From: Cellulomonas soli
Lineage (GTDB): Bacteria; Actinomycetota; Actinomycetes; Actinomycetales; Cellulomonadaceae
Length of the DNA: 64,000 nucleotides
Assembly: GCF_013409305.1 (NCBI RefSeq)
Contig: NZ_JACBZJ010000001.1
Coordinates: 2,046,001-2,110,000 of the forward strand
Direction: 5' to 3'
This document shows positions 31,444 to 60,848 of this stretch, piece after piece (positions within the stretch are counted from its first letter, which is position 1; each line of letters opens with the position of its first letter). The position numbers and the translations under genes are program-made. The notes under the pieces were generated by a model. It saw only the letters and a program-made list of their open reading frames with translations. It had not been told where the DNA came from and ran no database searches.

Positions 31444-31447
31444 TCCG

Positions 31448-34701: not shown

Positions 34702-34741
34702 CGAGACGCGGCGGAGACGTCGCGGAGACGTCGTCGAGACG
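34702..34741 (+). promoter_or_regulatory. Four 11-bp-spaced GAGACG heptamers, probable SARP operator
   Basis: Heptamers CGAGACG (34702-34708), GGAGACG (34713-34719), GGAGACG (34724-34730) and CGAGACG (34735-34741) start exactly 11 bp apart, separated by 4-bp spacers. SARP activators are known to bind heptameric direct repeats of TCGAG-like sequence with this same 11-bp period just upstream of the -10 box. The last copy ends 68 bp before the first gene of the contractile operon, and a SARP gene lies at 28837. A convincing -10 hexamer is not obvious; GAACCT at 34751-34756 is at the usual distance. Confidence 0.65.
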
Positions 34742-34808
34742 GGACCGCACGAACCTGACGTCCTCGGCCCCGTCGATCGGGGCGGACGCACAGGGGGGCA
34801 CCCGTGAC

Positions 34809-36218
34809 ATGGCCGACGACCCGGGGCTGGCGACCGACGCGGACGACGCGCTCGTCGCAGCGCGCTCGTTCGTCGTGCGGGCGCTCCTGGAGCGTGACGA
34901 CGGCCGGCACTGGCACGGGTTCGTCACCGACGCGGAGACCGGCGAACGTCAGGCGTGGCGGCGCAGCCGGGACCTCGTGCGGTTCATCGAGCGCCGGCTG
35001 GCCGCGGAGCGCACCGGCATGCGCACCGCGGCCGTCGGCGTGCCCGCGATCGGTGCGGGACGGGCGGCGCCCGCGCCGGCCCTCGACGCCGTCCCGGTCG
35101 CTGCGGCCGTGGCCGCCGGTCCCGCCGGTGCTGCCGCCGTCGCCGGCGTCGGTCCGGCAGGTCCACCGCCCGCGGGTGGTGCCCGTGCACCCCGGGCCCG
35201 GTTCGCGCTCGACGACGAGGTGGTCGCGGTGGCGGCCCCGACGTTGACGGCCGTGGTGGACGACATGCTCCTGCGGCTCGGCTCGCGGCTGCCGTCGCCC
35301 GTCGTCGGGGTGCCGGCGTCGAACGTGACGCTCGAACGGGTCACCGAGAAGCTGCTGGGCCTGGGCAACCATGCCGGTTCGGAGCAGACGGGCACGCTCG
35401 GGCTGCGCACGGTGCGCGGGGGGCGGCTCGGGGCGACGATCCGGTTCCAGCTGTGGTCCTCGACGTCCTCGGCGGCCGACCAGGCGATGTCGTCTCTGCA
35501 CGCGCGGCTGCTGCAGGACGCCGACGCGCTGTACGCCGAGGGGTTCCTGCGGATGACGGCCGCGGGCACCACGCTCGTCGAGCAGGTCTCGGCGGCGTCC
35601 GCGTGGCGCAAGACGACCAGCTACGAGGTGCTCTACGAGTACCGGTACGTCGACACCGACGACGCGGCCAGCCTGATCGCGCGGATCCCGGTGACCACGG
35701 ACGTCGACGAGCGCGACGGCCTCGCGCACGAGACGGGCACGGTCACCGACTCGCTGGTGCGGTGGGACGAGCACGGGGCGGAGCCGCTCGTCGTGCACGG
35801 GCCACGGGCGGTGAGCGCGCTCGCCGCGCTGGTGTTCGTGCCCGGGCCTGCGCTCGGCGGGACGGTCACGGTGGCGCGCACCTCCGGCACGGGCGCGCCC
35901 GTGCAGCACCTGCCGGACCTGGACCTGTTCTGGGCGGCGGTCGCCGGGCCGGAACCTACGCTGCTCGACGTCGACGTGGCGCTCGACCCCGCCGCCGCGT
36001 TCGCCGCCCTCGGCACGCTGACGCCCGCGACCGCGATGGGCGACTGGGACCTCGACCTGGTCACCGACGCCTACTCGGGCGTCGTGCGCCGCCTCGACCC
36101 GGCGGTCGTGCTGCCCACCGGGTCGCACCGCCTGACCGTGACGTACACCCCGCCGCCGGGTCCGGCCACGGGGCTCGACCAGACCGCTGTGGTCTACCTG
36201 CGCATGGACCCGCCGTGA
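34809..36218 (+). CDS. Contractile-system protein upstream of the sheath, possible tail cap
   Basis: 469 residues from ATG 34809. Residues ~1-60 form a charged helical domain. A ~65-residue Ala/Pro/Gly linker follows, then an alpha/beta domain from about 135 (PTLTAVVDDMLLRLGSRLPS; SNVTLERVTEKLLGL; GATIRFQLWSSTSSAADQAM) and a C-terminal beta-rich part. First gene after the putative SARP operator and 64 bp before the sheath gene, the place where tail-terminator (cap) proteins often sit. I do not recognise a named family, so the cap role is positional inference. Confidence 0.6.
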   Translation: MADDPGLATDADDALVAARSFVVRALLERDDGRHWHGFVTDAETGERQAWRRSRDLVRFIERRLAAERTGMRTAAVGVPAIGAGRAAPAPALDAVPVAAAVAAGPAGAAAVAGVGPAGPPPAGGARAPRARFALDDEVVAVAAPTLTAVVDDMLLRLGSRLPSPVVGVPASNVTLERVTEKLLGLGNHAGSEQTGTLGLRTVRGGRLGATIRFQLWSSTSSAADQAMSSLHARLLQDADALYAEGFLRMTAAGTTLVEQVSAASAWRKTTSYEVLYEYRYVDTDDAASLIARIPVTTDVDERDGLAHETGTVTDSLVRWDEHGAEPLVVHGPRAVSALAALVFVPGPALGGTVTVARTSGTGAPVQHLPDLDLFWAAVAGPEPTLLDVDVALDPAAAFAALGTLTPATAMGDWDLDLVTDAYSGVVRRLDPAVVLPTGSHRLTVTYTPPPGPATGLDQTAVVYLRMDPP

Positions 36219-36282
36219 ACCGGGCCGCCCCGGTCACGGGCCGTGCGTGCACCCGGACCCGCCTGTCGGAGGAGAGGAAGAG

Positions 36283-37929
36283 ATGACCGAACAAGTCCTG
36301 CCCGGCGTGCTCATCGAGGTACGTCCGGAGGCGCTCATCGTCCCCGGTGCCATCACCGTGGGGAACCTCGGTGTCGTGGGCACCGCGGCCAAGGGTCCCG
36401 TCGGGACGCCACGGCTGCTCGGCAGCTACGCGGACGCCGTCAGCACGTTCGGCACGTACGACCGCTGGGTCGACGGGGCGTCGGGCGAGCTCACGCTCGT
36501 GCGCGCGCTCGAGCAGGCCTACCGGTTCGGCGCGACGACCGTGTGGGCTGTGCGCATCGCCGACGGCAACGCGGCCCCCGCGGCCGTCGACCTGGCGAGC
36601 GCGGGTGGCCCGTGCGTCACGGTCGAGGCCCTGACCCCCGGCACGAGCGGCAACCAGCTGACCGTCGCGGTCTCCACGGCCGACGCGAACGCCCTGGTCC
36701 GCGGCGAGCCCGTCGCCGCCGGCGTGCTCGCGCACTTCCCGGTCGTGCCCAGTGCCGTGAACCGGATCGTGGTCCGGCCCTCGGGCGGTGGTGCGGACCT
36801 GGTGCCCGGCATCGTGTACGACGCGGCGCCCGGGCCGACGCAGGTCGGCATCACCACCGCGGACGGCACGCTCACGTTCGGCACCGCACCCGGCGGCACG
36901 GACGACGTGCTGGCCACCTACACGGTCGCGAAGTCCGCCGCCGTGAAGGTCACGGTCAAGCAGGGTGTGGCCGCCGAGGAGACGTACTCGGTGGTGTCCG
37001 GCGACGACCTGGTGGCCGACCTGGCCGCCGGCTCGGCGCTCGTGCGGGGCCTCGCGCTGGCCAACGCCGCCCAGGTCCCCTCGGCGCCCCTCCCGACGAC
37101 CCCGCTCACCGGCGGGGACAACGGCGCCGCGGGCGCCGGCTACGAGACCGGGCTGGAGGCGCTGCTCGAGGTCGACGCGCACATCGTCGTCGCCGCCGGG
37201 CAGGACCAGTCGTTCGGCGACGAGCTGGCCGCGCACGCCGCGGTCGCCTCGGGCGACGCGAACAAGCGCGAACGCATCGCCCTGGTCGGCACGGCCGCCG
37301 CCGCGAACCGACCCGCGTTCGTGACCGCGGCCTCCGCTCACACGCTCGCCTCCGACCGGCTCGTGCTCGTCGGCCCCGGCATCAAGGCCGCCGACCGCTC
37401 GCAGCAGCCGCCGGCCGACGTCGTGCTCCCCGGTGCGTACGCCGCCGCGGCGGTCGCCGGGCTGCTCTCCTCGCAGGACCCGCACATCAGCCTGACGAAC
37501 AAGGTGCTGCCCGTCGCCGGGCTCGAGCACGACTTCAGCAACGCCGAGCTCGCGCAGCTCGTGCTCAGCCGGCTGCTCGTGCTGGAGAACCGGCAGGGCT
37601 TCCGCATCGTCAAGGGCATCACGACCTCGACGAACACGGCCTGGACGCAGATCACCACGCGCCGGATCGTCGACTACACGAAGTACGGCGTGCGCAGCGC
37701 CGCGACGCCCTACATCGGCCTGCTCAACAACGAGCGGGTGCGCTCGGCACTGCGCGCCACCATCAACGGCTTCCTCACCACGATGGTGCTCGACGAGATG
37801 CTCGTCAGCTACGAGCTCGACGTCCACGCGTCCCGCCAGGACGAGATCGCCGGGCGCGCCCTGGTCGACCTGGTCATCCGGCCGACGTTCTCCATCGACT
37901 TCATCAAGGTGACGATGTTCCTCGAGTAA
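36283..37929 (+). CDS. Contractile tail sheath protein
   Basis: 548 residues. ATG 36283 follows a GGAGGAGAGG site. The opening LPGVLIEVRPEALIVPGAI, then GVVGTAAKGPVGTPRLLGSY and FGTYD, is the classic sheath N-terminus. The insertion domain carries LTPGTSGNQLTVAVS. The C-terminal domain has IVDYTKYGVRSAATPYIGLL and a final RPTFSIDFIKVTMFLE, the conserved sheath strand exchange region. Polymerised around the tube, it contracts to drive the tube through a membrane. Only one sheath gene is present, as in phage tails; many eCIS have two or three. This is the surest marker of the system. Confidence 0.92.
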   Translation: MTEQVLPGVLIEVRPEALIVPGAITVGNLGVVGTAAKGPVGTPRLLGSYADAVSTFGTYDRWVDGASGELTLVRALEQAYRFGATTVWAVRIADGNAAPAAVDLASAGGPCVTVEALTPGTSGNQLTVAVSTADANALVRGEPVAAGVLAHFPVVPSAVNRIVVRPSGGGADLVPGIVYDAAPGPTQVGITTADGTLTFGTAPGGTDDVLATYTVAKSAAVKVTVKQGVAAEETYSVVSGDDLVADLAAGSALVRGLALANAAQVPSAPLPTTPLTGGDNGAAGAGYETGLEALLEVDAHIVVAAGQDQSFGDELAAHAAVASGDANKRERIALVGTAAAANRPAFVTAASAHTLASDRLVLVGPGIKAADRSQQPPADVVLPGAYAAAAVAGLLSSQDPHISLTNKVLPVAGLEHDFSNAELAQLVLSRLLVLENRQGFRIVKGITTSTNTAWTQITTRRIVDYTKYGVRSAATPYIGLLNNERVRSALRATINGFLTTMVLDEMLVSYELDVHASRQDEIAGRALVDLVIRPTFSIDFIKVTMFLE

Positions 37930-37941
37930 GGACGCCCGCTC

Positions 37942-38466
37942 ATGGCACTCACAGAAGTCTTCACCGGCAAGCACGGCACCTTGACCCTCGCGGCCGAGGA
38001 CACCCCCGAGGGGGCCGCCGCGAAGGCCGTCGTGGACGCGTACGGCGTCCAGGTGGTGGGGCGGCTGACCGACGTGAAGGTCACCGTCGACACCGCGCTC
38101 AAGGAGTTCTACGAGGTCGGGCGGCGCCACCCGGTGTCGCTCAGCCCCGGGGACATCGCGATCAGCGGCACGGTCGGGCGCGCCTACGTCAACGGCGCGC
38201 TGCTGCTCCTGCTGCAGGGGCAGGGCTCGCAGCCCACCGCGGTCGCCGAGCCGTACGTGCAGCCCACGTTCGGCATCACGGTCCTGTTCCTCGAACCGGC
38301 GCGACCCGACGACGTGGTGGCGCTCGAGATCGGCGGCGTGAAGTTCCAGAACTGGCGCTTCTCGTTGCCCGAGGACGACTTCGTGCTCGAGGACCTGTGC
38401 TTCAAGGCCCTGACCGTCCGGGTGCTCGACACCGTCTCGGTGACGTTCCCCGGCGCCGGGGCCTGA
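37942..38466 (+). CDS. Contractile system inner tube protein
   Basis: 174 residues, 12 bp after the sheath gene. The strand-rich order fits gp19/Hcp-fold tube subunits: EVFTGKHGTLTLAAED, VVGRLTDVKVTVDTALKEFY, GDIAISGTVGRAYVNGALL, YVQPTFGITVLFLEPARPDD and VALEIGGVKFQNWRFSLPED. The sheath-tube order is universal in contractile tails. It forms the rigid tube that is expelled on contraction. Only one tube gene is present. Confidence 0.82.
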   Translation: MALTEVFTGKHGTLTLAAEDTPEGAAAKAVVDAYGVQVVGRLTDVKVTVDTALKEFYEVGRRHPVSLSPGDIAISGTVGRAYVNGALLLLLQGQGSQPTAVAEPYVQPTFGITVLFLEPARPDDVVALEIGGVKFQNWRFSLPEDDFVLEDLCFKALTVRVLDTVSVTFPGAGA

Positions 38467-38502
38467 CCTGTCGACGGACGAGCGGGCCGGAGGGGGTGGA
38501 CC

Positions 38503-39003
38503 ATGGCGCTGACCGCGGAGGACCTGCTGGCCGGCAGCACGCTGACGCACGACGTCACCGTGCCGGCCGGGCTGGTCGGAGGTGCCGGCGGGACCGGTGG
38601 CGACGGCACCGACGCCACGGGTGCCGGGGTGCCCGGGACCGTGCGGGTCCGGCCGCTGACCGTGCGGGACGTGCAGCTCGTCGCGCACGCCGCCAAGGAC
38701 GACCGTGAGCTGGCCGCCGGGCTCATGATCGCCCGCGCGCTCGTCGAGCCCGCGCTCACCCCCGACCAGGCCGGACGCCTGCCCGCGGGGCTGGCCCGGT
38801 TCCTCGTCGACACGATCAACGAGCTGTCCGGCATCGACACCCCGCGCGACCGGCTCGCCGAGCTCGTGCAGGCGCCGCTGGCCAAGGCGTGCTTCGTGCT
38901 GGCCGACGAGTTCGGCTGGACGCCCGAGGACGTCACCGGCATGACGATCGGCCAGATCCTCATGTACCTGGAGATGGCCGGACGGGCGGCCGAGGTCGCA
39001 TGA
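38503..39003 (+). CDS. Probable tail assembly chaperone-like protein
   Basis: 166 residues from ATG 38503, with GGAGGGGG upstream. A flexible Gly/Thr/Ala stretch (about residues 25-50) separates a short N-terminal segment from a helical domain: LTVRDVQLVAHAAKDDRELA, then LMIARALVEPALTP and FVLADEFGWTPEDVTGM. In contractile phages the gene after sheath and tube is usually the assembly chaperone that loads tape measure and tube. Position and helical character support that role; sequence family is not certain. Confidence 0.5.
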   Translation: MALTAEDLLAGSTLTHDVTVPAGLVGGAGGTGGDGTDATGAGVPGTVRVRPLTVRDVQLVAHAAKDDRELAAGLMIARALVEPALTPDQAGRLPAGLARFLVDTINELSGIDTPRDRLAELVQAPLAKACFVLADEFGWTPEDVTGMTIGQILMYLEMAGRAAEVA

Positions 39004-40259
39004 GCACCGGCCGGACCGTGCTGCCGCTGGACGCCGCGGGCGCCCCGGCGGCGTGGTGCGCCGCGAGCGTGCGGGCCACCCGCGCGCTGCACGACGTGCC
39101 CGACGCGGTCCGTGCGGTGTGCGCCGCGGCGCCCCGGACCCCGCACGTGCTGCGTGGCCCGCTGCTCGGCACCTGCCTGACCGACGTGCTGGACCGTGCA
39201 CCCGCGGACCCGCCCGACGAACCGGCCGCCGGGTCCCGCCCGCCACGTCGGTCGTCGTCGGGAGGGCCGGTCGGCGCGGGCGTCGGACGTCCCGCTCCCG
39301 GAGGGGCCCGGGTGGCCGACCGGTTTCCGGCACCGGGACCCCGTCCCGAGACCGTGCCGCCCGTCCGCCGCACCCGGGCGGGCGGCACGACGGGTGCGCC
39401 TCGACCCGGCAGGGCACCGGGAGGCAGCGGTGCCGCCGTGGCCGTGGTGCCCGAGCACCGGCTGCGGGCGCTGGCCGGACCGGTCGGGCGAGCGGCCGCG
39501 CACCCGACCGGACGGCGTGCGGCCCGGCCCGGCACGGGGTCGGCACCGGCACGCGGCTCGGGACGCGAGACGCTCCCCGGGGCCGAGGATCTCGCCGCCC
39601 GCCTCGCGCGCCGACTCGTGCAGCGCGTGGCCGGGCTCGCCGGGGGCCCTCGGGCGAGCGACGGCGGTGACGCCCTCGGACAGCTGGCCCGCGGTGCTCT
39701 GCGCCCCGTCGGTACCCCCGCCGGCCCGGAGCTGGCCGGGCTGCTCGCCCGGCTCGTGGCCGCTGTGCCCGCGGGTCCCGCAGCGCCCGTGGGCGAGGGC
39801 GGCGCGGGCAGCGGGCGTGGGGTCGCGGACGTCACGCCGCCGGTACCGGGCCGTGCGCGCCGCGGCCGCCGCGGTGCGCCGGTGACCGACGAGACCGCGG
39901 GCCCCGGCCCGGAACCGTCCGGTGCCGCCCGGGCCGGTCGCGGCCCCGCAGTCACCCCGCGTCCGCCGTCGGTCGCGGACGACCGGACCGGCCCCACCCG
40001 CCTGTGGCCGCCGGCCGGCTCGGACGAGCGCCGTCCGCACCCCGAAGGGCCGCTCGACGAACGGCCGGGCACGCCCGACCGACTGCGCGACGGCGACACC
40101 GCCCCGGCGGGGCGCGGCGAGACGTGGACCGGCGTGCGTCCGGTGACCGCCGACACCCGCGCGTCCGCTGCCGTCGTCGGGCTGGCCGAACCGGACCTCG
40201 AGCAGCTGCTCACCCAGGTGCTCACCGACGCCGCGCGACGGCACGGGATCGAGGTGTGA
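39000..40259 (+). CDS. Pro/Arg/Gly-rich disordered protein in the contractile operon
   Basis: 419 residues from ATG 39000 (ATGA overlap). An N-terminal ~70-residue ordered part (VRATRALHDVPDAVRAVCAA) and a short C-terminal helix (LEQLLTQVLTDAARRHGIEV) flank about 320 residues dominated by Pro, Arg, Gly and Ala, with one amphipathic helix near residue 200 (DLAARLARRLVQRVAGLAG). It could be a linker, a scaffold, a tape-measure substitute or a cargo protein. The gene order (after the putative chaperone, before baseplate genes) is where tape-measure genes usually lie. Frame, overlaps and codon bias leave no doubt that it is a gene. Confidence 0.6.
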   Translation: MSTGRTVLPLDAAGAPAAWCAASVRATRALHDVPDAVRAVCAAAPRTPHVLRGPLLGTCLTDVLDRAPADPPDEPAAGSRPPRRSSSGGPVGAGVGRPAPGGARVADRFPAPGPRPETVPPVRRTRAGGTTGAPRPGRAPGGSGAAVAVVPEHRLRALAGPVGRAAAHPTGRRAARPGTGSAPARGSGRETLPGAEDLAARLARRLVQRVAGLAGGPRASDGGDALGQLARGALRPVGTPAGPELAGLLARLVAAVPAGPAAPVGEGGAGSGRGVADVTPPVPGRARRGRRGAPVTDETAGPGPEPSGAARAGRGPAVTPRPPSVADDRTGPTRLWPPAGSDERRPHPEGPLDERPGTPDRLRDGDTAPAGRGETWTGVRPVTADTRASAAVVGLAEPDLEQLLTQVLTDAARRHGIEV

Positions 40260-40260
40260 C

Positions 40261-40806
40261 GTGCGCCCGATGCTCGCCGGCGAGGAGCTGCCGCAGGTCC
40301 AGGACCTGACGACGGTCGACCGTCGCGCGCTCGCCGAGCACAAGGCGCCCGGCAAGGACGGCAGCATGCTGCAGAACCTCGGCCGCGCCCCCACCGGCAT
40401 CACGCTCTCCGGGGTCGCGTCGGGCCCGTCCGCGCTCGACGTCGTCGAACGCCTCAAGGCCGACATGCGCACCGGGCAGCCGGTCGCGTTCGTCGCCGAC
40501 ATCACGGCCGACACCGACGTCGAGCAGGTGCTCGTCGACGACGTGCAGGTCCGGCAGCTCGCCGGCAGCCCCGACCGGTACGCGTACGTCGTGACGCTGC
40601 ACGAGTTCACCGAACCCGTCGAGCCGGCCGCGACCGACGCCCTCGACGCCGACGTCCTGGGCGACGCCGAGGACCAGCTGGGCGACGTGCTCGACGGCCT
40701 CGACCTGGCCGTCCCGTTCGAGACCGGCCTCGACCGGTTCGTCGCGCCGCTGTCCGACCTGCTCGACCGCCTGGTCGCGCTGCGCCAGGCCTCCGGCGGA
40801 CCCTGA
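40261..40806 (+). CDS. Baseplate-associated protein with DNA-circularisation-like domain (short paralogue)
   Basis: 181 residues from GTG 40261, with GAGGTG upstream over the previous stop. The first ~120 residues align well with the N-terminus of the 41377 product: RPML, a QVQ-TT strand, LQNLGRAPTGITLSGV and the GQPVAFVADITADTDVEQV segment all have counterparts. The pattern resembles the N-terminal domain of phage DNA-circularisation/baseplate proteins that sit between tube and hub. The C-terminal 60 residues are acidic Leu-rich helices. Likely a structural ring component at the tube base. Confidence 0.55.
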   Translation: MRPMLAGEELPQVQDLTTVDRRALAEHKAPGKDGSMLQNLGRAPTGITLSGVASGPSALDVVERLKADMRTGQPVAFVADITADTDVEQVLVDDVQVRQLAGSPDRYAYVVTLHEFTEPVEPAATDALDADVLGDAEDQLGDVLDGLDLAVPFETGLDRFVAPLSDLLDRLVALRQASGGP

Positions 40807-40885
40807 CCGGCCGCCACTCGCCCGGGCTCCGTCCGGGCGCACACCCACCCCGTGCCTCCGGGTACCGGCCCGACAGGAGAGACCG

Positions 40886-41302
40886 ATGGCCGACGCGAAC
40901 CTGTTCGAACAGCTCAAGTCGGTGCTCACCGACTTCAAGTCGTTCCTCGACGACAACGTCGCGACGATCAAGCCCGCCGTGCAGGCGATCGCCGCGCTCG
41001 TCCCGCAGATCAACGAGCTGCTCGACCAGCTCGTCGGGCTGCTCGACAAGCTGCGCACCGAGATCACCAACCTCGACGTCGGGGCGATCCCCGGGCTCGG
41101 CGAGGTCGCCCAGCTGACCGGGATGATCCCCGCGCTGCTCGACGCGGCCAAGAAGCTGCTGCCCGACGAGACCTCGAGCATCGACGCGATCGCGGACGTG
41201 GCCGACGTGGTCACGGGCCTGCCGTCGGTCGACGCCGTCAAGACCGAGCTGCTCGACCTCATCACCGCGATCAGCGCCCACCTCACCTCGCTCAAGGCCT
41301 GA
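40886..41302 (+). CDS. All-helical protein, 138 residues
   Basis: ATG 40886 follows AGGAGAGA. The whole chain is amphipathic helix: LFEQLKSVLTDFKSFLDDN, then IAALVPQINELLDQLVGLLD and VVTGLPSVDAVKTELLDLI. Leu/Ile/Val heptads suggest coiled coil. It lies between the two paralogous baseplate genes. A tape measure of this length would span only ~20 nm by the usual 1.5 Angstrom per residue, so it is either a very short ruler or a plug or chaperone. No family assigned. Confidence 0.6.
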   Translation: MADANLFEQLKSVLTDFKSFLDDNVATIKPAVQAIAALVPQINELLDQLVGLLDKLRTEITNLDVGAIPGLGEVAQLTGMIPALLDAAKKLLPDETSSIDAIADVADVVTGLPSVDAVKTELLDLITAISAHLTSLKA

Positions 41303-41338
41303 GCCGAGCCTGAGCCGAGCCTGAGCCGAGCCTGAGCC
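41298..41338. repeat. 11-bp tandem repeat over a stop codon
   Basis: CCTGAGCCGAG occurs three times (41298-41308, 41309-41319, 41320-41330), then CCTGAGCC. Each unit contains TGA in the preceding gene's frame or its neighbours, so it may be a simple replication-slippage array without function. Confidence 0.6.
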
Positions 41339-41376
41339 AGTCCGACCGGAACCCGACGGAGGAGAGGGGGTGCGCA

Positions 41377-45417: not shown

Positions 45418-46349
45418 ACGCCGTCGTCTCCGAGCTCCTCGCCGCGGCCGTGGTGGTCGCGGTGGACGTCTGTGCGGTGGATCTCGCCCCTGGCGCCGGA
45501 GGCGTGCCCGGCTCCGCTCCGGGCCTGGCCGTCGGGACCGGCACGATCGAGGTCGAGCTCGTCGAGGTCGTCAAGGGCCGCGTGCACGCGGCGCCCGGCG
45601 AGCACGTGCGCGTGCCGGTGAGCGTCACCTCGAACGCCGACCTGTGGGCCTCGGTGCACGTCGGCGACCGCCTCGTCGCGTTCACCGGCGGCGGGTCGAC
45701 CGACCTGGCCGTGCTGCTCACCCCGGAGCACTGCACGTCGCTGCGCCCGGCCGGCGCAGGTTCCGCGGGTGAGGACCCCCCGGGGGTGCTCGCGGACGTG
45801 CGGCTCGCCCGGGCGGTGCAGCGGCGCAGCCCGACGGTCGACCGCCTGCTCGCCGAGGCGCACCGGCGGCGCGGCGAGGGCGGGGCGGTGTTCGCCCGGT
45901 ACGTGTGGGTGGCCGTGCGGGACGCGGTGCGCGCCGACGCAGCCCGGTTCGACATGCTCATGGGCACCGCCGAGGATCCGGGCACGCGTCTGGACGCGCA
46001 GCAGGTCTACCTGGTCGCGGCCTTCGAGGACATGACGTTCGGCGCCGACTTCCCGGCCGACCGGCGGGCGCGGCTGGTGCGGGCGATGCTGCGGGTCGCG
46101 CTCGACCCGCGGGTGGGCGAGTGGCGGGCCGCGCTCCTGGGCACCTACGTGCCCGCCCTGGTGCGGGCCCCGCTGCCCACAGCGCTCGTCGCGTCGGACG
46201 TGTTCTCGCCCGCGACCGCCGACCTGCGCGACGCGGTGCGCACCGAGCTGGGCGACCCGCGCGACCCCGCGACGGACAGCTCGACCGTGCTCGCGTGGCT
46301 CGACGCCGACGCATCCGCGGGCCGGGCCGGCTCGGGCGGGGGTGGGTGA
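45414..46349 (+). CDS. Contractile-operon protein of unknown function
   Basis: 311 residues from ATG 45414 (ATGA overlap). The N-terminal ~125 residues are beta-rich (IEVELVEVVKGRVHAAPGEH; ADLWASVHVGDRLVAFTGG) and look like a small barrel. The C-terminal ~185 residues are helical (VFARYVWVAVRDAVRADAAR; RARLVRAMLRVALDPRVGEW). There is no signal peptide or membrane helix. It sits between the giant OmpA/PG protein and the hub. Could be an assembly factor or accessory structural part. No family recognised. Confidence 0.55.
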   Translation: MNAVVSELLAAAVVVAVDVCAVDLAPGAGGVPGSAPGLAVGTGTIEVELVEVVKGRVHAAPGEHVRVPVSVTSNADLWASVHVGDRLVAFTGGGSTDLAVLLTPEHCTSLRPAGAGSAGEDPPGVLADVRLARAVQRRSPTVDRLLAEAHRRRGEGGAVFARYVWVAVRDAVRADAARFDMLMGTAEDPGTRLDAQQVYLVAAFEDMTFGADFPADRRARLVRAMLRVALDPRVGEWRAALLGTYVPALVRAPLPTALVASDVFSPATADLRDAVRTELGDPRDPATDSSTVLAWLDADASAGRAGSGGGG

Positions 46350-48212: not shown

Positions 48213-48267
48213 GGGGCGCACGCACCGTCAGCAGGACCCGCCCGCTGGAGGAGGAAGGAGGACCACC

Positions 48268-48600: not shown

Positions 48601-48679
48601 CACGGCACCCGCGGCAGAACCCGCACGCGCGGCCCGGCCCGCATCCCCTGAACCGCACCCGCTCGACGAGGAGCACCCG

Positions 48680-53800: not shown

Positions 53801-55309
53801 CTGCTCGGGCCGGTCGACCTGTCGGGGCGTGCGCTGCTGCGCCTCGCGGTCGACGGTGGCGAGCCGGTCGACGTCGACCTCGCCGGCGTCGTCCCGTCCC
53901 GCACATCCGGCCCGGAGGTCGTCGCGGCGATCACGGCCGCGCAGGTCGGCGCCGGGGTCCTCGGAGGGCAGACCACACCGACCGGCTCCGGCTCGACCGC
54001 CTCCTCGCCAGGCCTGTCGGCGGCGCTGACGGCCGAGCAGCGGCTGCGGCTCACGTCGTCCACCACGGGCCCGTCCAGCCGCGTCGAGGTCGTCCCCGTG
54101 CGGCACCTCGACCTCGAGGAGTACCCGCCCGTCCCCGCGACGCTCACCGCACCCGTCCGGCACGGCGCGACGATCCGCCTGACCAGCACGGGCGCCTCCG
54201 ACGTCCCGGCCCGCGTCGAGGTCCGCACGCCCGCCGGGGTGTCCGGTCCGCGACTGGCCGCGCCCGACGCGGGCTGGTCGGTGCGGGTGGACGACGGCAT
54301 CGGCGCGGGCGGCAGCCTGGCGCTCGAGGTCGTCCCGGGCGCCCCGGGCGTGGTCCGCGCGACGATCGTCGAGGACGGCGTCGCCCGCGTCGTGCCGCCC
54401 GCGCTCGTGCAGGTGAGCGCCGACCCGTCGGGCGCCGCCCCGCTGACCGTGCGGCGCGGCCGCCAGACGTGGAGCTGGACGGAGTGCCGGGCGGCCCGGT
54501 TCGACGAGGCGTCGTTCGACGAGGACAGGTTCGCCGGCGGCCCATGCACCGAGGAGGCCGTGCTCGACCTCAGCCGCTTCGCCGCTGCGGGTGCTCCGGG
54601 TGCAGTGGGCGATGCGGGCACGACGGCCACCGTCGGTGCCGTCCTGGCCGGGACCGGCGAGCGCCGCACCACCGCGCACGTCACCCTCACGTGGGACTCC
54701 CACCAGGCGGGCGCGTTCGTCGTGCACCTGCCGGCCGACCTGGACCCGCGCTTCGGTGCCACGTTCGGCGAGGCACGGTTCGGCACGGCCGACCCCCACG
54801 TGCTCGAGGGCGTGGTCACCGAGCCCGAGCTCGACGACGCCCACCTGGTCACGCGGGTCAACAAGGACCCCGCGCACGTGCTCGTCGCCGCGCTGGTCGG
54901 CCGCGTGCCGATCGGCTGGTCGCCGGTCGCGGTCCCGTTCCGCACGTCGGTGCCGCTGACCGGGGGCACGCGCGACGACCCGGCCCGCCTGTACGTGTCC
55001 GACCCGGGGTTCGGGGGACGGTTCGCCGTGCTGTCCGCGCCCGAGCCGGGCACGTGGGGCGACGGGCTGCGGGTGGCGCTGCGGCGCAGCACCCCCGGCT
55101 TCTACGACCTCGAGGTGCACGTGCCCGGCACGCCGTTCGAGCTCGCCCGGGCCACGGTCCTCGGCCCGGCGCCACCGTCCCTTGCCTCCGCGCTCCTCGC
55201 ACCCTCCCCGGCCGGGGTGGCGACCGCCAAGGCCGCCGGGGTGCGCGCGGCGGTCGGTCGCGATCGCGTCGAGCCCGTCGAGATCACAGATGACGGAGCG
55301 GCACCCTGA
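50804..55309 (+). CDS. gpI-like wedge protein fused to eight beta repeats
   Basis: 1501 residues from ATG 50804, overlapping the J-like gene by 14 bp. Residues ~1-150 resemble the tail protein I family (ILAALPPTFRLRG; LIAALYGLAPRPDESVEEFR; YVRSRLDSTVTVQGILRTAA). Then come eight imperfect repeats of 90-130 residues, starting near 165, 280, 402, 507, 636, 766, 879 and 996. Each opens G-T-x-D-L-S/T and continues LRV-x-VD-x-x-x-PVDVDL, VVAAINAAL and LTSPTTGPSS. The repeat resembles flagellin-hook-IN type beta motifs. The C-terminal ~370 residues include TWGDGLRVALRRSTPGFYDL, similar to the sheath insertion domain. Probably an enlarged wedge reaching outward to fibres. Confidence 0.7.
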   Translation: MPKADRILAALPPTFRLRGDPSALRALVDAYGGELQSAENSLVAVMRAHWVPFADTGGREVHDLALIAALYGLAPRPDESVEEFRDHLLRYVRSRLDSTVTVQGILRTAAEALGLHLEDEALDTWWTRPDPVLVTSLPDGRDAAVRVLGVPAVDRRGADAQAAELVGDVDLSAGVDLRGPHLLSVALDGGGEVPVDLTVAAADPTHAHVTAAEVAQAVVAELGAGVRAWVADGRLHLASATVGTTSAVHVADRPDDAATLVLGLPPRTYDGAAATRARVVGTADLSTALDLTDARYLRVLVDGTHLVEVDCAAGSVDPAHVDLSDVTAAINAALAAVHPGLVVAADDGRTLTLTSPTVGPAGSVVLLDPAAQPATARLLGDAPRSAVGLPDRRGTLVSHRAIGTGVDLSTASVLRVAVDDEDPVDVDVAGLDPAATLPGEIVSSLNEGLGAQVATHDGDRITLASPVAGAAGSVRVEEVDGDAAPRVLGLRPRSATGAAPVTAAFTGTVGLTAGAKLSAAHVLRLRVDDEDPVDVDLRAGAAHPDRVTRDELVDAVNTALHRPDDSPVASDDGTHLVLVSPTDGAGGRLVVEPLRVTARRRFVTRARVTDDAATTVLGFTAGAAVGTPETSARLAGSTNLTGGVDLRDARWLRVRVGDRAPVEVDCADPDRPRATTVATVAASINAAIDTSTGVAPGGAAGPPVALTDGRTLVLVDPTPGAGSRVEVEPTRAVDALTAVLGAGAGAADSGGVDVRGAGAGGVRFTGTVDLSAGVTVPADAALRLGVDAAAPVDVPLGDGAGPSTLALSRLVALVNLTLGASVAAHDGTHLLLTSPTTGAGSALHVEVPTTGTDVTAALLGIDAPRTYAGRAAVPAQVTGTADLTAGIDLRVAHLLSVTVDQGEAVTVDLTAGLPDGARAAVTAAQVAAAINARTTATASTAVVPGGLSVRVMSPTSGPSSRLRLGFTHTGDAAALLLGPGARVATGQAAGPAVLDGTVDLLGPVDLSGRALLRLAVDGGEPVDVDLAGVVPSRTSGPEVVAAITAAQVGAGVLGGQTTPTGSGSTASSPGLSAALTAEQRLRLTSSTTGPSSRVEVVPVRHLDLEEYPPVPATLTAPVRHGATIRLTSTGASDVPARVEVRTPAGVSGPRLAAPDAGWSVRVDDGIGAGGSLALEVVPGAPGVVRATIVEDGVARVVPPALVQVSADPSGAAPLTVRRGRQTWSWTECRAARFDEASFDEDRFAGGPCTEEAVLDLSRFAAAGAPGAVGDAGTTATVGAVLAGTGERRTTAHVTLTWDSHQAGAFVVHLPADLDPRFGATFGEARFGTADPHVLEGVVTEPELDDAHLVTRVNKDPAHVLVAALVGRVPIGWSPVAVPFRTSVPLTGGTRDDPARLYVSDPGFGGRFAVLSAPEPGTWGDGLRVALRRSTPGFYDLEVHVPGTPFELARATVLGPAPPSLASALLAPSPAGVATAKAAGVRAAVGRDRVEPVEITDDGAAP

Positions 55310-55409
55310 CGGCCGCACCCGACCAGACCCCACCCCGGGCCCCACCCCGGACCAGACCCCAGCCGCAATCCAGCCCGAGCCAGCACCACCAGCACCAGGA
55401 GGGACCACC

Positions 55410-56387
55410 ATGAGCGAGACCAGCACCCGCTACGTCGACCGGGCACCCGGCGACCTGCTCACCGCCGAGGACTGGAACACGCTGCAGGACAAGATCCACG
55501 ACGACATCCGCAGCACCGCCCAGACCGCGGCCGACGCCGTCACGCACGTGCACAGCGCCGACGACTCCACGCACCTGGAGGGCAAGGGCCTCGACGCGCT
55601 CACCGAGGAGATCACCAAGCGCGTGCTCGACGAGGTCCGTGGCCGCACGGGCTACCAGCAGCTGTTCCTCGTCCTGAAGAACGACGAGCCGCAGGTCGTC
55701 GAGCACGGCCTGGGCACCCCGCCGCTGGTCGACCTGTACCGGCTGGAGTACTTCGAGGTCGTCTCCCGCGAGGACGACGAGACGCGCGACGCGTGGGCGA
55801 CGTTCTACCTGCACCACTCCGAGGAGCGGCGCATCCGGGTCACGGGCGAGAACAACGAGCGCAGGTCGGTCGACATCCAGCCACCCGACGGGCCCGAGAT
55901 GGGCATCCCTTTCGCCGACATGCTCACGCGCTACGGCGTGGAGTACACGGACACCTCGACGCTCGACGACCTGGAGACGGAGTTCTGGAAGGCGTTCTTC
56001 CGGGCCCCGAACGAGCAGTTCAACGACGACCAGTACACGCACTCGCCCTGGTTCGAGCGGTGCTGCAAGGAGCAGCAGACGGTCCGCAAGCTCAAGGCGA
56101 ACGGCGACTGGAACGACATCGTGTTCCAGGTCCGCCCCCGCAAGTCGGTGAACTTCGAGACCTCGACCGTCCTGGCGGGCGGCGGCAAGGACGGCGGCGA
56201 CGCGACGATCACGCTGCACCCGCACCCGACGAGCGTGTTCGTGCAGCACCTCGACAACAACCGGCTGGCCCTCTGGTACCTCGGCGTCACGCCGGCGGAC
56301 ACGGCGGACGAGATCGCGGCCCGCGACTACATCGGCGGCACCCGCTACGACCGCGAGCAGAAGCTCATGGTGCTGCTCAAGGTCTGA
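55410..56387 (+). CDS. Contractile-operon protein, possible fibre or collar component
   Basis: 325 residues; ATG 55410 follows AGGAGGGA. The N-terminal ~85 residues are helical (LTAEDWNTLQDKIHDDIRST; LDALTEEITKRVLDEVRG) with an HVHSADDSTHLEG segment that recalls tail-fibre hinge regions. The rest is a mixed domain rich in aromatic and charged residues (FYLHHSEERRIRVTGENN; SPWFERCCKEQQTV). Less Ala-rich and lower in G+C than neighbouring proteins, suggesting constraint or exchange, as expected of a fibre part. No family named. Confidence 0.55.
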   Translation: MSETSTRYVDRAPGDLLTAEDWNTLQDKIHDDIRSTAQTAADAVTHVHSADDSTHLEGKGLDALTEEITKRVLDEVRGRTGYQQLFLVLKNDEPQVVEHGLGTPPLVDLYRLEYFEVVSREDDETRDAWATFYLHHSEERRIRVTGENNERRSVDIQPPDGPEMGIPFADMLTRYGVEYTDTSTLDDLETEFWKAFFRAPNEQFNDDQYTHSPWFERCCKEQQTVRKLKANGDWNDIVFQVRPRKSVNFETSTVLAGGGKDGGDATITLHPHPTSVFVQHLDNNRLALWYLGVTPADTADEIAARDYIGGTRYDREQKLMVLLKV

Positions 56388-56450
56388 CCCACCGCTCCAC
56401 CCACGGCCCGGGCGGCACGCCGCGCCGCCGCATCGCACGAGGAGGTCCCG

Positions 56451-59400
56451 ATGCGCATCCGCACCACCCACCGCGGGCGGGCGCTGCCGTTCGAGCGCGA
56501 CCGGCGCCTCGTGCTGCGCCGGCTGCCGGTCGGTGCCGTGGTGCGGCGGGCGGTTCTCACGCTCACCCCGGTGAGCACGGACACGGGGTCGCGGTTCCTC
56601 GAGTCGCTCGCGCTCGTCGACGGCCTGGGGGACTGGGGGGCGGTCAAGGCGCGCACGAGCGGCACCCCGGGCGCGGTCGAGGTCGACCTGCACGCCCGCC
56701 GCCGGCTCGCGGCCTGGTCGGGCACGGGTGTGGGCGCGGGAACCCTGCTGGTCGACCTCGGCGGCGGCTTCATGGCGGTGGACGCCGCGGGGGGCATCGG
56801 TGACGGTGCCGCCCTCGCGCTGCAGGACGCGATGACCCTGCCCGGTCTGACGGTGACCGGCCTGCGTGTGGCCGGGACCGCGGCGGGTGCGGACCTGGCC
56901 CGGCTCACGGTGGCCTCGCCGCCGAGCGGCGTAACGGTCGCGCTCGAGGGCGGTCCGGTGTTCTTCGCGCGGTCCGGTGACCTCGTCGAGCCCGTGACCA
57001 CACCCGACTTCGCGGACCTGCTCATGGGCATGCTCACGCGGTTCGAGGTGGTCGACGGCTGCCACGTCGTGCCGTTCGTCGTGCACTCCGACTCGATCGC
57101 CCGCCTGGACGTCGACCTGGAGATCGAGCACGAGCTGGCCGTCCCCGCGACCCCGGACGGCGTGGCGAGCGTGCAGGCGGCCTACGCCTACGACGGCACC
57201 CCGGTCGGTGGGCAGGGGAGGCTGCTGGTGCCGGTCCCGGCGGGCATGGTCGCGGTGACCGGCGGCACCGCCGGGCGGGCGCAGGGCGGCTTCGCGGCCG
57301 ACCGGGTCGTGTTCGGCCCGCTCACCACGGGCGCCGACGACGAGCTGGTGCCGGTGACGTCGGGCCAGTCGCTCGCGCAGGCGTTCGTGCTGCCGGCCAC
57401 GCAGGTGGTCACGTCGGTCGACGTCCGGCTGACCGCGGTGACCGCGTCCGTCGGCCTCGCGCTCGACCTGGTCGACGACCTCGACGGCAAGCCCGGTCGC
57501 AGGTCCGCCCTGACCCGCCCCGCGACGCTGACCCTCACCCGGGACGCGGCCGGCAGGCCCACCTGGGTGTCCGTCCCGCTGCCGGGCGAGGTCGAGGTCG
57601 CCGCAGGCCAGCGCAGGTGGGTCGTCCTGCAGGTCACCGAGGGGTCCGCGGCCTGGAGCGCGTCGAGCGACGACGGACGCGGGGGAGCCGGGCCGGACGC
57701 CCCGACCGGCAACCCGGCGCTGCTGCCCGGCCCCGGCCTGCAGCACACCCGCGACGGCGGGCTGTCCTGGCGCGCAGCCACCCCGGAGGGGGACGCGACG
57801 GCCGGATCGAGCGGGCTGCGTGCGGAGCTGCGCCTGCGGCACACGACCCCCGGCTTCCACATGCCCCTCGAGCTGCGGGCGAGCGCCGGCGGGCCCGAGG
57901 TCGCCGTCTCGCTGCAACGGTTCGCGGCCGCCGGCACGGTCGACGTCGACCTGGGCTTCGACGACGTCGCGCACGCCGTGAACACCGCGCTCGCGGACGT
58001 CGGCGCGGGTGCCCCCGCAGGGGGTGGCGAGCGGGTCGCGAACGGTGACTTCGTCGACTGGTTCCGCGTCGGCACGGCGGTCGGCCGCCCGACCCCGCTG
58101 CGCCCCACGAACCCCGCGGCCCAGCTCGGTGTCGGCGCGTTCGGCCCCGACAGCGCCACCGCCTACACCGCGGTGCAGGTCGACGGCGTCGCGCACCTGC
58201 TGGCCTTCGACGTGTTCTCCGGCGCGCAGGAGGTCGACGGCGCGATCGGCGACGGCACCCCGTCTGCCCTCGCGCTCGACCCGACCGGGGCGACCGCGGT
58301 CGTCGCGCTCGACCGTGCGGTCGTCGACGAGCTCGGCACGGGCGATGCCCAGGGCACGCTCGTGCTCGTCGACACCGCGACCGGCCGACCGGTCGGCCAG
58401 GCGATCGTGTTCCCGGACGCCGTCGCCCGCCTCGTGCCGGCCCAGGACGGGCTCGGCGTCTACGTGCTGGCCTGGCCCGACCGCGCGCAGCTCTCCGCAC
58501 GCAGCGCGCTGCGGCACGTGCCCTGGTCCGACCTGCGGGCCGCGGCCGCGGGCACGGTCGTCGACTGGGCGGGCCTGCCGACCGCGCGCCTGGCCGGCTT
58601 CCCGCGCGACCTGGCCTCCGGACCGGGCGGGCGGGTCGTCGCGCTGCTGGAGCAGGAGGGCGCTGCGGGTGCCGTGGGCAACGCCACGGTCGGGCGGCTC
58701 GTCACGTTCGCCGACCGGGGTGCGCTCGCGGGCGGTGTCGGCGTGCAGGTCGACGCGGTCGCCGACGCGCGGGCCGTGGCGGTCGCCCCGACGGTCGCAG
58801 GGTCACCCACCGGGGCCTCGTCGACCGCTGTGCCCGCTGTGCCCGCTGCGCCCGCCGCCGAGGTGCTCACGCTGGCCGACGACCGGGTGCGCTTCTCCCG
58901 GGTGCGTGACCTGTCCACGGTCGTCGACGTCCCGCTCGAGGCGGTGGATGCCGGACGCGCGCAGGCCCTGGCCGTCGACGCGTCGGGGACCGTCGCACTG
59001 GCCGTGCGGTCCGACGCGGTCGCCGCGCTCGACGTGCCCGGCCGTCGTCTCGTGCAGGACGGGCGCCTGGGCACCGCGGCGCCGGACGGTGCGAGCGTGG
59101 CGATCAGCGCCGCCGGGACGCATGCGCTGCTGGCCGCCGTCGAGGCGACCGCGGCCGACCTCGTGCCGCTCGGCGACGCCCTGCCCGTCGAGTGGGAGCT
59201 CACCGCCGGCACGGTCCGCCCCTACGCCGTGCGCACCACCGGCGAGCTGTTCGCCCTGCTCGGCGACGCCCGCGCCCGCCGGGTGCGCACCAAGGACGCC
59301 CCGGAGACCGTCACGTCCGCGCTGTCCCAGGTGGTTCCCGCGGTCGGCGGCGCCCGCTACCGCTTCGCCTTCGACGGCCTGACGACCGTCGAGGGTGCGG

Positions 59401-60794
59401 TCGCCCAGGTCCGCTGGGCCGCCGGTGCGTGCACGGCCGAGCGGGTCGACCGCGTCCCCGTCACGGTCTTCGACCCCGAGGAGGAGTCCGCCCTGGCGCA
59501 CGTGCCGCACCACGAGGTGGTCCTCGTGGCACCCGCGGGCGCCGTGCAGGCCGAGGTGCGCATCCTCTCGCCCGAGGGGTTCACGCTCGTCGACAAGGTC
59601 AGCCTGCTCGGCACGGCCGACCTGGCCACGGCCACGTGGAGCGCCGACGCCCCCACGACGACCGTGACCACGGTGACCTCGCCGCTGCGCGGTGGCGCAC
59701 CGGGCACGCCATCGACGGGCGGGGCCGACGTCCCCGGGCGACCCGTCGCCGTGACCTTCACCAACGGCGGCGCCGCGCCGTCGACCGTCACCCAGATCGC
59801 CCCCGCCCGACCCGGCGACCGCTGGGACCTGCGGGTATCCGCGCACGTCGACGGCCCCCCGGGCGCACACCTCGACCTCGTGCCGGCCGATGACACCGGG
59901 ACGCCCGTCGGCGAGACCGTGACGCTCCCGCTCGACAGCCTCGACTTCGACGCGCGCTCGGCCGGTGGCACGGTGCCCGCGGGCGCCGCCGAGGTCCAGC
60001 TGCGCCTGGTGCTGCCCCCGGGCGCGGTCGTCGACGTGGACGACCTGGCGCTCGCGGTCGGTCCGGTCGCCCAGGTCGAGGTGTACTTCGCATCCGACGC
60101 CCCCGGTGAGCTGCGCGTCTCCGACGTGACGGTCCGTCTCGACGACGGCGTGCCGACACCCCCTCCGGTGCCCGAGGGGGGTCTGTGCCCGCCGACCCCG
60201 ACCGGCGAGGACGGCGAGTGCGACGACTGCTGCTACTGCCAGTCCTGCGGGACGCACGCACCGACGGGCGACCGTCGTACCCGACCGGCAGCGGACGCCG
60301 TGGTCGCCTCGCCCTCTCCGGTCCGTCCCGTCGCGGGCGCCCGGCCGACCGCGCAGGTGCGCGCGGCCACGACCCCGGCGGGCCGGCCGGCGGCCGTCAG
60401 TGCGTGCCCGACGTGCGGTGCCGACCGCGTCCGGCTGGGCGGTCAGGTCGTCGCCGGTGCCCGCACGCTCGCGCTCCCGCGGTTCCGTGCCGTCGACCGG
60501 GTGCTGGTCCGCGCCGACGGCCCGGCCCGCGCGGCGGCGGCCCTGCGTTCCGGGGTGCCCGCCATCGTCGCCCGCACGCAGGTCGACGCCGCCCTGAGCG
60601 ACATCGACGGGATCGCCGACACCCGGGCAACGGCGCTGACCCGTGCCGGGATCACGGATGTCGTCGCGCTCGCCCGGGCCGATGTCGCCGAGGTCGCGGC
60701 GCTGCCGGGGGTGTCGGACCGGATGGCCGAGACGTTCGTCGCCGAGGCCGCCGCCCTGGTCCGTGCCCGGGGCCGCCGCACGCTCGTCGACTGA
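56451..60794 (+). CDS. Giant putative tail-fibre protein with propeller, Cys cluster and helix-hairpin-helix
   Basis: 1447 residues; ATG 56451 follows GAGGAGG. Residues ~1-550 are beta-rich, with a carbohydrate-binding-like region (SGQSLAQAFVLPATQVVTSV). About 570-935 repeat strand-turn units ending in phrases such as ALALDPTGATAVVALD, ALAVDASGTVALAVRS and VAISAAGTHALLAAVE, pointing to a beta-propeller. Further beta domains follow to ~1245. Then comes a Cys cluster (CDDCCYCQSCG at ~1257), a Pro/Ala linker, CPTCGADRV (~1323), and a C-terminal helix-hairpin-helix region (DIDGIADTRATALTRAGITD; EVAALPGVSDRMAETFVAE). Last gene of the operon, the usual place for receptor-binding fibres. The zinc-like and HhH tail is unexpected. 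Confidence 0.65.
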   Translation: MRIRTTHRGRALPFERDRRLVLRRLPVGAVVRRAVLTLTPVSTDTGSRFLESLALVDGLGDWGAVKARTSGTPGAVEVDLHARRRLAAWSGTGVGAGTLLVDLGGGFMAVDAAGGIGDGAALALQDAMTLPGLTVTGLRVAGTAAGADLARLTVASPPSGVTVALEGGPVFFARSGDLVEPVTTPDFADLLMGMLTRFEVVDGCHVVPFVVHSDSIARLDVDLEIEHELAVPATPDGVASVQAAYAYDGTPVGGQGRLLVPVPAGMVAVTGGTAGRAQGGFAADRVVFGPLTTGADDELVPVTSGQSLAQAFVLPATQVVTSVDVRLTAVTASVGLALDLVDDLDGKPGRRSALTRPATLTLTRDAAGRPTWVSVPLPGEVEVAAGQRRWVVLQVTEGSAAWSASSDDGRGGAGPDAPTGNPALLPGPGLQHTRDGGLSWRAATPEGDATAGSSGLRAELRLRHTTPGFHMPLELRASAGGPEVAVSLQRFAAAGTVDVDLGFDDVAHAVNTALADVGAGAPAGGGERVANGDFVDWFRVGTAVGRPTPLRPTNPAAQLGVGAFGPDSATAYTAVQVDGVAHLLAFDVFSGAQEVDGAIGDGTPSALALDPTGATAVVALDRAVVDELGTGDAQGTLVLVDTATGRPVGQAIVFPDAVARLVPAQDGLGVYVLAWPDRAQLSARSALRHVPWSDLRAAAAGTVVDWAGLPTARLAGFPRDLASGPGGRVVALLEQEGAAGAVGNATVGRLVTFADRGALAGGVGVQVDAVADARAVAVAPTVAGSPTGASSTAVPAVPAAPAAEVLTLADDRVRFSRVRDLSTVVDVPLEAVDAGRAQALAVDASGTVALAVRSDAVAALDVPGRRLVQDGRLGTAAPDGASVAISAAGTHALLAAVEATAADLVPLGDALPVEWELTAGTVRPYAVRTTGELFALLGDARARRVRTKDAPETVTSALSQVVPAVGGARYRFAFDGLTTVEGAVAQVRWAAGACTAERVDRVPVTVFDPEEESALAHVPHHEVVLVAPAGAVQAEVRILSPEGFTLVDKVSLLGTADLATATWSADAPTTTVTTVTSPLRGGAPGTPSTGGADVPGRPVAVTFTNGGAAPSTVTQIAPARPGDRWDLRVSAHVDGPPGAHLDLVPADDTGTPVGETVTLPLDSLDFDARSAGGTVPAGAAEVQLRLVLPPGAVVDVDDLALAVGPVAQVEVYFASDAPGELRVSDVTVRLDDGVPTPPPVPEGGLCPPTPTGEDGECDDCCYCQSCGTHAPTGDRRTRPAADAVVASPSPVRPVAGARPTAQVRAATTPAGRPAAVSACPTCGADRVRLGGQVVAGARTLALPRFRAVDRVLVRADGPARAAAALRSGVPAIVARTQVDAALSDIDGIADTRATALTRAGITDVVALARADVAEVAALPGVSDRMAETFVAEAAALVRARGRRTLVD

Positions 60795-60848
60795 GTCGTC
60801 CACACCGGGGCGTCCGGACGGTCCCGTGGCTGCGTTAGGCTGGTGGCA

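Follow-up and report, generated by a model that had tools for sequence, protein, structure and literature searches.

A probable headless contractile injection particle with a swappable, effector-like subunit, encoded by an operon of Cellulomonas soli and representing an unrecognised lineage

An operon of Cellulomonas soli that contains genes for a contractile sheath and baseplate raises the question of what kind of machine it encodes. It lies in a stretch of 64,000 nucleotides (bases 2,046,001-2,110,000 of the complete 4.26-Mb genome), which is called the window here and whose positions serve as coordinates. A preliminary description of the window had reported a co-directional operon of about 26 kb with sheath, tube, hub, gpV, PAAR-like, gp25, gpJ and gpI-like genes, and this proved correct: 34,809-60,794 holds 17 genes, all open and all on the plus strand. 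The "many" 4-bp overlaps also reported do exist, but the word is generous, as they occur at 4 of the 16 junctions (with the start codons chosen here), besides further overlaps of 14 and 20 bp. In our judgement the operon probably encodes a headless contractile injection particle belonging to an unrecognised lineage of contractile injection systems (CIS), in which a protein of 1,345 amino acids (aa) is a built-in effector subunit with a swappable end. The parts, order and conservation of the operon genes are established at the sequence level.

Searching proteins with the sheath as query yielded 1,242 homologues from 8,000 scored candidates; the best 120 are 56-100% identical to the query across 99-100% of its length. 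The nearest sheaths from named organisms are those of Pengzhenrongella and Cellulomonas, and a scan of named genome contigs with the sheath gave 71 loci. Sixteen operons of the near group were read whole, mainly by phmmer gene calls, and the counts of relatives given below refer to them: 7 Actinomycetota, 1 Acidobacteriota, 2 Cyanobacteriota, 1 Chloroflexota, 4 Pseudomonadota and 1 Vulcanimicrobiota, several of the non-actinobacterial ones being metagenome-assembled genomes (MAGs). These counts exclude the loci of Marinifilum, Herpetosiphon and Desulfosediminicola, which belong to sister groups. The 16 relatives span six phyla, and for 15 of the 17 genes a call was made in 14-16 of them. Imperfect entries are the split gpJ of C. 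massiliensis, the split giant gene of the Acidobacteria MAG and the Frankia contig, which ends inside gpI. Gene order is the same in 15 of 16, the two halves being divergent in an Eremiobacterota MAG; since the order recurs in this way, the operon is more than a chance assembly.

In profile scans (Pfam, NCBIfam and PHROGs) the contractile parts of the operon were recognised. Pfam cut-offs are passed by the sheath (36283..37929; 548 aa; PF17482, 2.3e-12; PF04984, 1.8e-11), which also matches phrog_279 at 1.5e-45, by the OB domain of the gpV-like spike (47400..48212; PF04717, 8.6e-8) and by the gpJ-like baseplate wedge (49216..50817; Baseplate_J, PF04865, 7.8e-15; PHROGs, 2.9e-35). The identities proposed for the inner tube (37942..38466; 174 aa), the PAAR-like tip (48268..48600) and the gp25-like sheath initiator (48680..49219), whose Pfam matches lie below the cut-off (PF18906, 0.0056; PF05488, 5.7e-4; and 1.2e-4, respectively), rest on PHROGs, position or conservation: the tube was called in all 16 relatives, the tip in 15, and gp25 matches phrog_975 at 5.3e-17. 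One VgrG-related model (NF033848) is matched in part by the hub (46351..47403; phrog_196, 1.1e-11) and in part by the spike (1.6e-11 and 7.6e-12, respectively, both below the cut-off), so VgrG is split here, and hub and spike have a gene each in all 16 relatives. A smaller hub-like baseplate subunit (40270..40806; 178 aa) matches the baseplate hub family phrog_184 at 8e-6 and DNA_circ_N at 8.1e-4, below the cut-off. The operon has one sheath gene and one tube gene.

The first gene (34809..36218; 469 aa) was called in 16 of 16 relatives. Its AlphaFold model, built from 17 sequences (pLDDT 73.5), has the terminator of cyanophage A-1(L) as its rank 1 in Foldseek (probability 1.00, E 3.9e-4). The TM-scores are only 0.20/0.33, as expected when a single domain of a long protein provides the match. 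A phage baseplate takes rank 2, with lambda gpU and the pyocin R2 collar further down. The fold match gives this gene as a predicted phage-type tail terminator with extra domains. The gpI-like protein (50804..55309; 1,501 aa) matches gpI of a sister system over only about 75 N-terminal columns (94.9%) and continues into a long arm of about eight units of about 115 aa. These were read by motif, with landmarks 109-129 aa apart, and self-BLAST at 1e-3 detected no repeat. A fibre-like protein of 325-365 aa, depending on the start codon (55290..56387), was called in 15 of 16 relatives, the contig ending before the gene in the remaining one, and had no match in Pfam, NCBIfam, PHROGs or PDB. The last gene (56451..60794; 14 of 16 relatives) encodes a giant fibre-like protein of 1,447 aa that ends in CxxC pairs and a helix-hairpin-helix domain (HHH_5, 8.3e-7 in Pfam) and matches choice-of-anchor R at 1.1e-7. 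PDB sequence searches with the hub, the fibre-like alignment, the C-terminal module of the 1,345-aa protein and the terminator alignment gave no match.

No tape measure was recognised in the operon; a 138-aa helical protein and a 419-aa protein are candidates. The 138-aa protein (40886..41302; 15 of 16 relatives) follows the hub-like subunit, a slot that is occupied by a protein of 1,130-1,216 aa in seven of eight sister loci and in Herpetosiphon. Its profile matched these large tape-measure-like proteins at just 34.7% and 9.5%, and no tie was made. Its Pfam match to baculovirus families was dismissed as a coiled-coil chance match. The low-complexity 419-aa protein (39000..40259) had a phmmer match in 1 of 16 relatives; an ARRHGIEV-type motif at its C-terminus is present in 12 of 16, with no gene called at that place in the other four. 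Conservation of this protein is confined to an N-terminal stretch and the C-terminal motif. Between the tube and this gene, a 166-aa protein conserved in 16 of 16 relatives (38503..39003) holds the position of a tail chaperone and has no family match in Pfam, NCBIfam or PHROGs. A crude hydropathy scan found no clear transmembrane segment in 16 of the 17 proteins and a marginal one in the 311-aa protein.

Three proteins of the operon exceed 1,300 residues (1,345, 1,501 and 1,447 aa), as the preliminary description had stated. It had taken them for oversized baseplate and fibre proteins; the sizes hold, but the 1,345-aa protein (41380..45417) is better read as a modular effector carrier. Its conserved part of about 620 N-terminal residues comprises a paralogue of the hub subunit followed by OmpA and peptidoglycan-binding (PG_binding_1) domains, and its variable C-terminal module (44137..45414) is predicted to be all-beta. 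The N-domain aligns with the hub-like subunit two genes upstream at 99.9% in hhalign (1.6e-34), and by this profile comparison the two are paralogues. Pfam matches of the giant to DNA_circ_N and NTP_transf_3 were not used alone as evidence. In the OmpA domain, Asp, Asn, Leu and Arg are spaced (+8, +11, +15) as in the diaminopimelate (DAP) site of TagL, and they are invariant in all 16 aligned rows (this window and 15 of the 16 relatives, the split Acidobacteria gene being left out).

A search with residues 1-620 of the giant gave 409 homologues at E <= 1e-20, and the last 250 residues of the best 120 were clustered. Among these 120, the window type has 43 members and two classes bearing an HExxH motif have 40 and 8; the others are short (11), PAD (4), PETase-like (3), truncated-like (3) and singletons (5, one of them PLD), and 3 were too short for classing. 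In Pfam, one example each matched PAD (arginine deiminase) at 1.7e-93, PETase-like (hydrolase) at 3.1e-10 and PLD at 8.7e-10. The HExxH motif is present in 48 of 48 members of its two classes, which have no Pfam match, so the label metallopeptidase-like rests on the motif. By analogy with VgrG2b, whose effector domain is a zinc metallopeptidase according to the available text of PMC6899460, these alleles may be zinc metallopeptidases. Five pairs of giants are 94.2, 92.2, 91.8, 91.7 and 91.7% identical in their N-terminal parts and have unmatched C-termini (best BLAST E for the last 300 residues 0.067, 0.006, 2.4, 1.6 and 2.7, respectively). Three Rhodobacterales have three different C-termini, that of Roseobacter belonging to the first HExxH class, that of Yoonia to the second and that of Shimia to neither. 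Phormidesmis has a PLD-like module in a gene of its own, adjoining the giant. Near-identical N-termini with unrelated C-termini are the pattern of a polymorphic effector, and we read the giant as such an effector built into the particle; its release, target and toxicity are predictions. In the pairs P0213/P0223, P0203/P0225 and P0185/P0236 both members have a longest contig of equal length (958,104, 66,657 and 12,619, respectively), a hint that a locus may hold two giants that differ in their C-termini.

The gene 3' of the giant (45414..46349; 311 aa; no Pfam match) is a candidate adaptor or immunity gene. Its family was called in 4 of 16 relatives and found by a stop-to-stop scan in a fifth and sixth actinobacterial locus; elsewhere the slot holds other families or no called gene.

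How far is this system from known ones? The profile of 31 sheaths had only four matches in PDB at E <= 0.01, namely phage 812 (4.1e-11), a haloarchaeal CIS (3.7e-9) and two Streptomyces sheaths (7.1e-4 and 3.2e-3), and did not reach the R-type pyocin sheath. A Streptomyces-type sheath used as a single sequence had 21 PDB matches at 1e-5, including Pvc2, Afp2, AlgoCIS, All3325, pyocin and T4. A tree of 97 sheaths separated 26 canonical actinobacterial sheaths and phage P2 from 69 rows of the window kind and phage 812, with a support of 100 and branches of 4.83 and 3.18. Phages 812 and P2 are on very long branches and their placements are unsure. These sheath comparisons contained no known representative of families IIb and IIc of the extracellular contractile injection systems (eCIS), which are divided into six families, Ia-IId, in a scheme taken from the accessible portions of the literature used here (PMC11566945, PMC13277306, PMC8894135, PMC10066040, PMC8253398, PMC10598620, PMC6899460). 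The 31 near-group rows including the window form one clade with a support of 91, short of the 95 mark; one locus first labelled as core (L035) groups with L038 and L041. The sheath thus separates from eCIS, pyocin and T4 sheaths, with phage 812 the nearest known.

Gene content gave the same separation. Two canonical actinobacterial CIS loci, read in the same way as controls, each contain the ATPase, a pair of tube-like genes and a fused VgrG of about 620-635 aa, whereas the window operon has one sheath, one tube and a split hub and spike; the lack of an AAA+ ATPase, of sheath or tube paralogues and of a fused VgrG had been noted before and holds. Thirteen queried proteins of one canonical locus match the other canonical locus. 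Inside loci of the window kind they match only the sheath (weakly), VgrG and gp25, and outside them one response-regulator-like and one AAA+ protein. The canonical Afp15-like ATPases of the two loci, used as phmmer queries, matched no gene inside these loci, nor did canonical (Afp16-like) terminators, and none of the 17 genes of the window operon has a Walker A motif. NCBIfam scans of the 17 operon proteins gave no type VI secretion system (T6SS) model above the cut-off, the rest of the genome not being searched for T6SS. Lacking an Afp15-like ATPase, T6SS models and a lysis cassette, and with its sheath apart, the system was rejected as a member of the eCIS, T6SS or tailocins.

The nearest known systems each resemble it in part. 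The Streptomyces CIS (eCIS family IId; PDB 8bky) shares the broad sheath fold family, a VgrG-type hub and spike, gp25 and the phylum Actinomycetota, but differs in having an AAA+ ATPase, a second tube gene, a fused VgrG and a different terminator, and its sheath type is split from that of the window on a long, fully supported branch. The haloarchaeal T6SS-like CIS (clade IIa; PDB 9ezm) is the best single-sequence PDB match of the window sheath (2e-5) and is likewise reported to lack a tape measure in the available text of PMC11566945. However, its sheath is of the Streptomyces type, being matched at 7.7e-118 by a Streptomyces-type query, and it has an ATPase, given in a figure legend of that source, and a putative membrane anchor, neither of which was found in the window system. 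Phage 812 (Herelleviridae) provides the best PDB profile match of the sheath, and its sheath initiator and wedge match too, but it is a whole phage that has a capsid, a long tape measure and receptor-binding proteins, whereas the window system is headless. When the 17 families were compared by hhalign with single proteins of phages 812 and P2, only the sheath, gp25 (97.2%, the 812 sheath initiator), gpJ (95.3%, the 812 wedge) and the hub (62.4%) matched; no phage 812 protein matched the giants, terminator, tube or fibre-like proteins. Evolved VgrG and other fused T6SS effectors such as VgrG2b also join an effector domain to a structural part, but that carrier is the VgrG of a T6SS, whereas the one proposed here is a hub paralogue with OmpA and peptidoglycan-binding domains in a non-T6SS particle. 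TagL and the specialised TssL of T6SS have an OmpA-type peptidoglycan-binding domain with the same DAP-site residues as the giant, as far as the available text of PMC8253398 gives them; TagL belongs to the membrane proteins of the anchoring complex, whereas the OmpA domain of the window sits in a soluble-looking particle protein.

The preliminary description had proposed a distinct actinobacterial class of particle. The sheath tree and gene content agree with a class of its own, but it is not actinobacterial: the same operon is present in Acidobacteriota, Cyanobacteriota, Chloroflexota, Pseudomonadota and Vulcanimicrobiota, and among 396 sampled genomes of Actinomycetota a strong sheath match (E <= 1e-60) was found in 2, that of C. 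soli included, with any PF17482 match in 35. Twelve of 58 near relatives had some sheath match, which was strong only in the genome of C. soli itself (E >= 1.5e-17 in the others). Actinomycetota occur at two places in the near-group clade, which fits horizontal transfer. Sister sheath clades are found in Pseudomonadota, Cyanobacteriota and Chloroflexota. Eight sister loci with more distant sheaths (L066, L062, L070, L059, L040, L037, L030 and L046), as well as Herpetosiphon, Marinifilum and Desulfosediminicola, combine the sheath and tube with the 166-aa-like gene and the hub-like subunit. Inspection by eye, without a Pfam scan, revealed no head gene in them, and these clades are apparently further headless systems. 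All three Rhodobacterales loci have their own sigma-54 factor, as well as a sigma-54 activator, at the flanks of the operon (L019:7364-8689; L116:11912-13282); the latter is an AAA+ protein, yet a regulator. One sheath 60% identical to that of the window (P0065) carries the archaeal MAG label Methanothrix, and contamination is possible.

The operon had been described as the unit. Its 17 genes hold together, but the acquired unit is larger. Seven loci were compared by blastn for an empty site, and two same-genus genomes were informative (G006 and G011; loci L204 and L205): they share window positions 19,223-28,541 at about 82% identity, then have 47 unaligned bp instead of a 32.3-kb island (28542..60829) and continue with the signal recognition particle (SRP) RNA at 60,830. 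The empty site lies between a major facilitator superfamily (MFS) transporter gene and this RNA. The island edges show no terminal repeat and share no 9-14-base word in either orientation, and GC content is 75.1% against 74.2% in the flank. Besides the operon and small genes, the island holds a BTAD-domain transcriptional regulator, which is the probable regulator of the system (28852..29916, plus strand; PF03704, 2.5e-23); its cluster has members in 8 of 20 stretches, on the opposite strand in three (G060, G066 and G076) and downstream in G066. An ABC transporter ATPase (31448-32209; PF00005, 9.7e-26), a permease-like membrane protein without Pfam match (32185-33750) and a CPBP/Rce1-like intramembrane protease with an approximate start (33750..34616; PF02517, 2.5e-15) follow on the same strand. 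Pairs of an ABC transporter and a CPBP/Rce1-like protease can serve bacteriocin self-immunity; the regions upstream of the relatives' operons showed no recognisable counterpart of this pair. Outside the island, about 16 kb to the left, tRNA-Ser(GGA) has a phage-type integrase gene next to it (16906-18397), and the stretch left of that gene resembles a separate integrated element.

We propose that the particle would assemble in the cytoplasm, as the lack of transmembrane segments suggests, and be freed by lysis or envelope damage. Its arms and fibres would find a target, and the sheath would then contract. The 1,345-aa subunit would dock through its N-terminal domain, bind DAP-type peptidoglycan through its OmpA and PG_binding domains and carry the swappable C-terminal module to the target, in the manner of an evolved VgrG. 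Several alleles carry catalytic-looking modules. Since the allele of the window is all-beta without a recognised enzyme, it may bind or perturb a surface here and not catalyse.

Several points weigh against this proposal. The particle, its expression and its toxicity are predictions from sequence. The phage 812 sheath falls on the window side of the tree, albeit on its very long branch, which would make the window sheath phage-like. In Phormidesmis an AAA+ gene related to the CIS ATPase (G067 16374-18191; 1.7e-23) lies on the opposite strand, some 10 kb upstream of the operon. The only swapped modules observed in linkage with a CIS locus are those of the two HExxH classes (Roseobacter and Yoonia) and the separate PLD-like gene of Phormidesmis; PAD, PETase and PLD giants were placed in such loci through their N-termini. 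The C-terminus of the window giant gave no enzyme by Pfam or fold; no family stood out in VIA-align either, where absence of a match says little. The slot-gene family tracks lineage and module alike, leaving it a candidate for an immunity role only. There is some room, if not much, for a reading in which the particle is the same and the giant is an anchor or adhesin that ties the baseplate to the wall of the producer or the target, its variable C-termini recognising surfaces. The intact DAP-type site, the all-beta module, whose best structural matches are Ig-like and phage-tail rows, and the fact that the ends of adhesins vary too would suit such an anchor. The HExxH motif in 48 of the best 120 relatives and the PAD, PETase-like and PLD modules of others fit effectors better, and the operon has neither a transmembrane segment by the hydropathy scan nor a membrane complex.

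It is improbable, in our view, that the operon encodes a self-acting cytoplasmic CIS that kills its producer under stress. Streptomyces CIS act in this way according to the available text of PMC10066040, no membrane part or lysis cassette was recognised, and the island has a BTAD regulator; but sequence relationship to the Streptomyces system is confined to the sheath (weakly), the VgrG halves and gp25, and the polymorphism of the C-termini points to conflict with others. Least credible of all is a decayed prophage or the remnant of a phage tail. The terminator, sheath, gp25 and gpJ are phage-like with phage 812 nearest, and the integrase and tRNA-Ser lie to the left of the island. However, the integrase is outside the island, all genes are open, and their order is kept across six phyla. 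TerL (PF03354) and portal (PF04860) had no match in the genome of C. soli, other terminase, portal and capsid families not having been searched genome-wide. No head or packaging gene was found among the Pfam-scanned island proteins, and no lysis family was found in the operon (Pfam and PHROGs) apart from peptidoglycan-binding domains. Among 50,697 phage records only 4 (19% coverage) had a sheath match, and no plasmid searched or viral contig scanned had one. The earlier statements that head, packaging and lysis genes are absent and that the locus is not a prophage agree with our results.

In conclusion, a headless particle with a built-in effector subunit accounts best for this operon. A wider statement seems to us evenly balanced: that this is a major CIS lineage beside the T6SS and eCIS, spread by transfer over at least seven phyla, without a loading ATPase or recognisable tape measure and armed by a polymorphic, peptidoglycan-binding hub-paralogue effector instead of tube cargo. 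No publication describing this type of locus was found in the literature searched, which did not extend to most subscription papers, the dbeCIS paper included. Surveys of CIS start from known systems: in the available text, one demands a homologue of Afp12, 13, 14 or 16 (PMC8213781), and another derives its families from eight known CIS and discards any cluster that has Cis13 and Cis14 but lacks Cis15 (PMC12210884), so both filters, as far as given there, probably exclude a lineage like this one. If particles are made, the diversity of injection machines gains a branch that shares only the sheath, a VgrG-type hub and spike and gp25 with the canonical actinobacterial type at the sequence level, and the natural C-terminal modules would be a ready set for testing. 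The presence of these islands in soil and marine bacteria makes the question of the particle directly testable.

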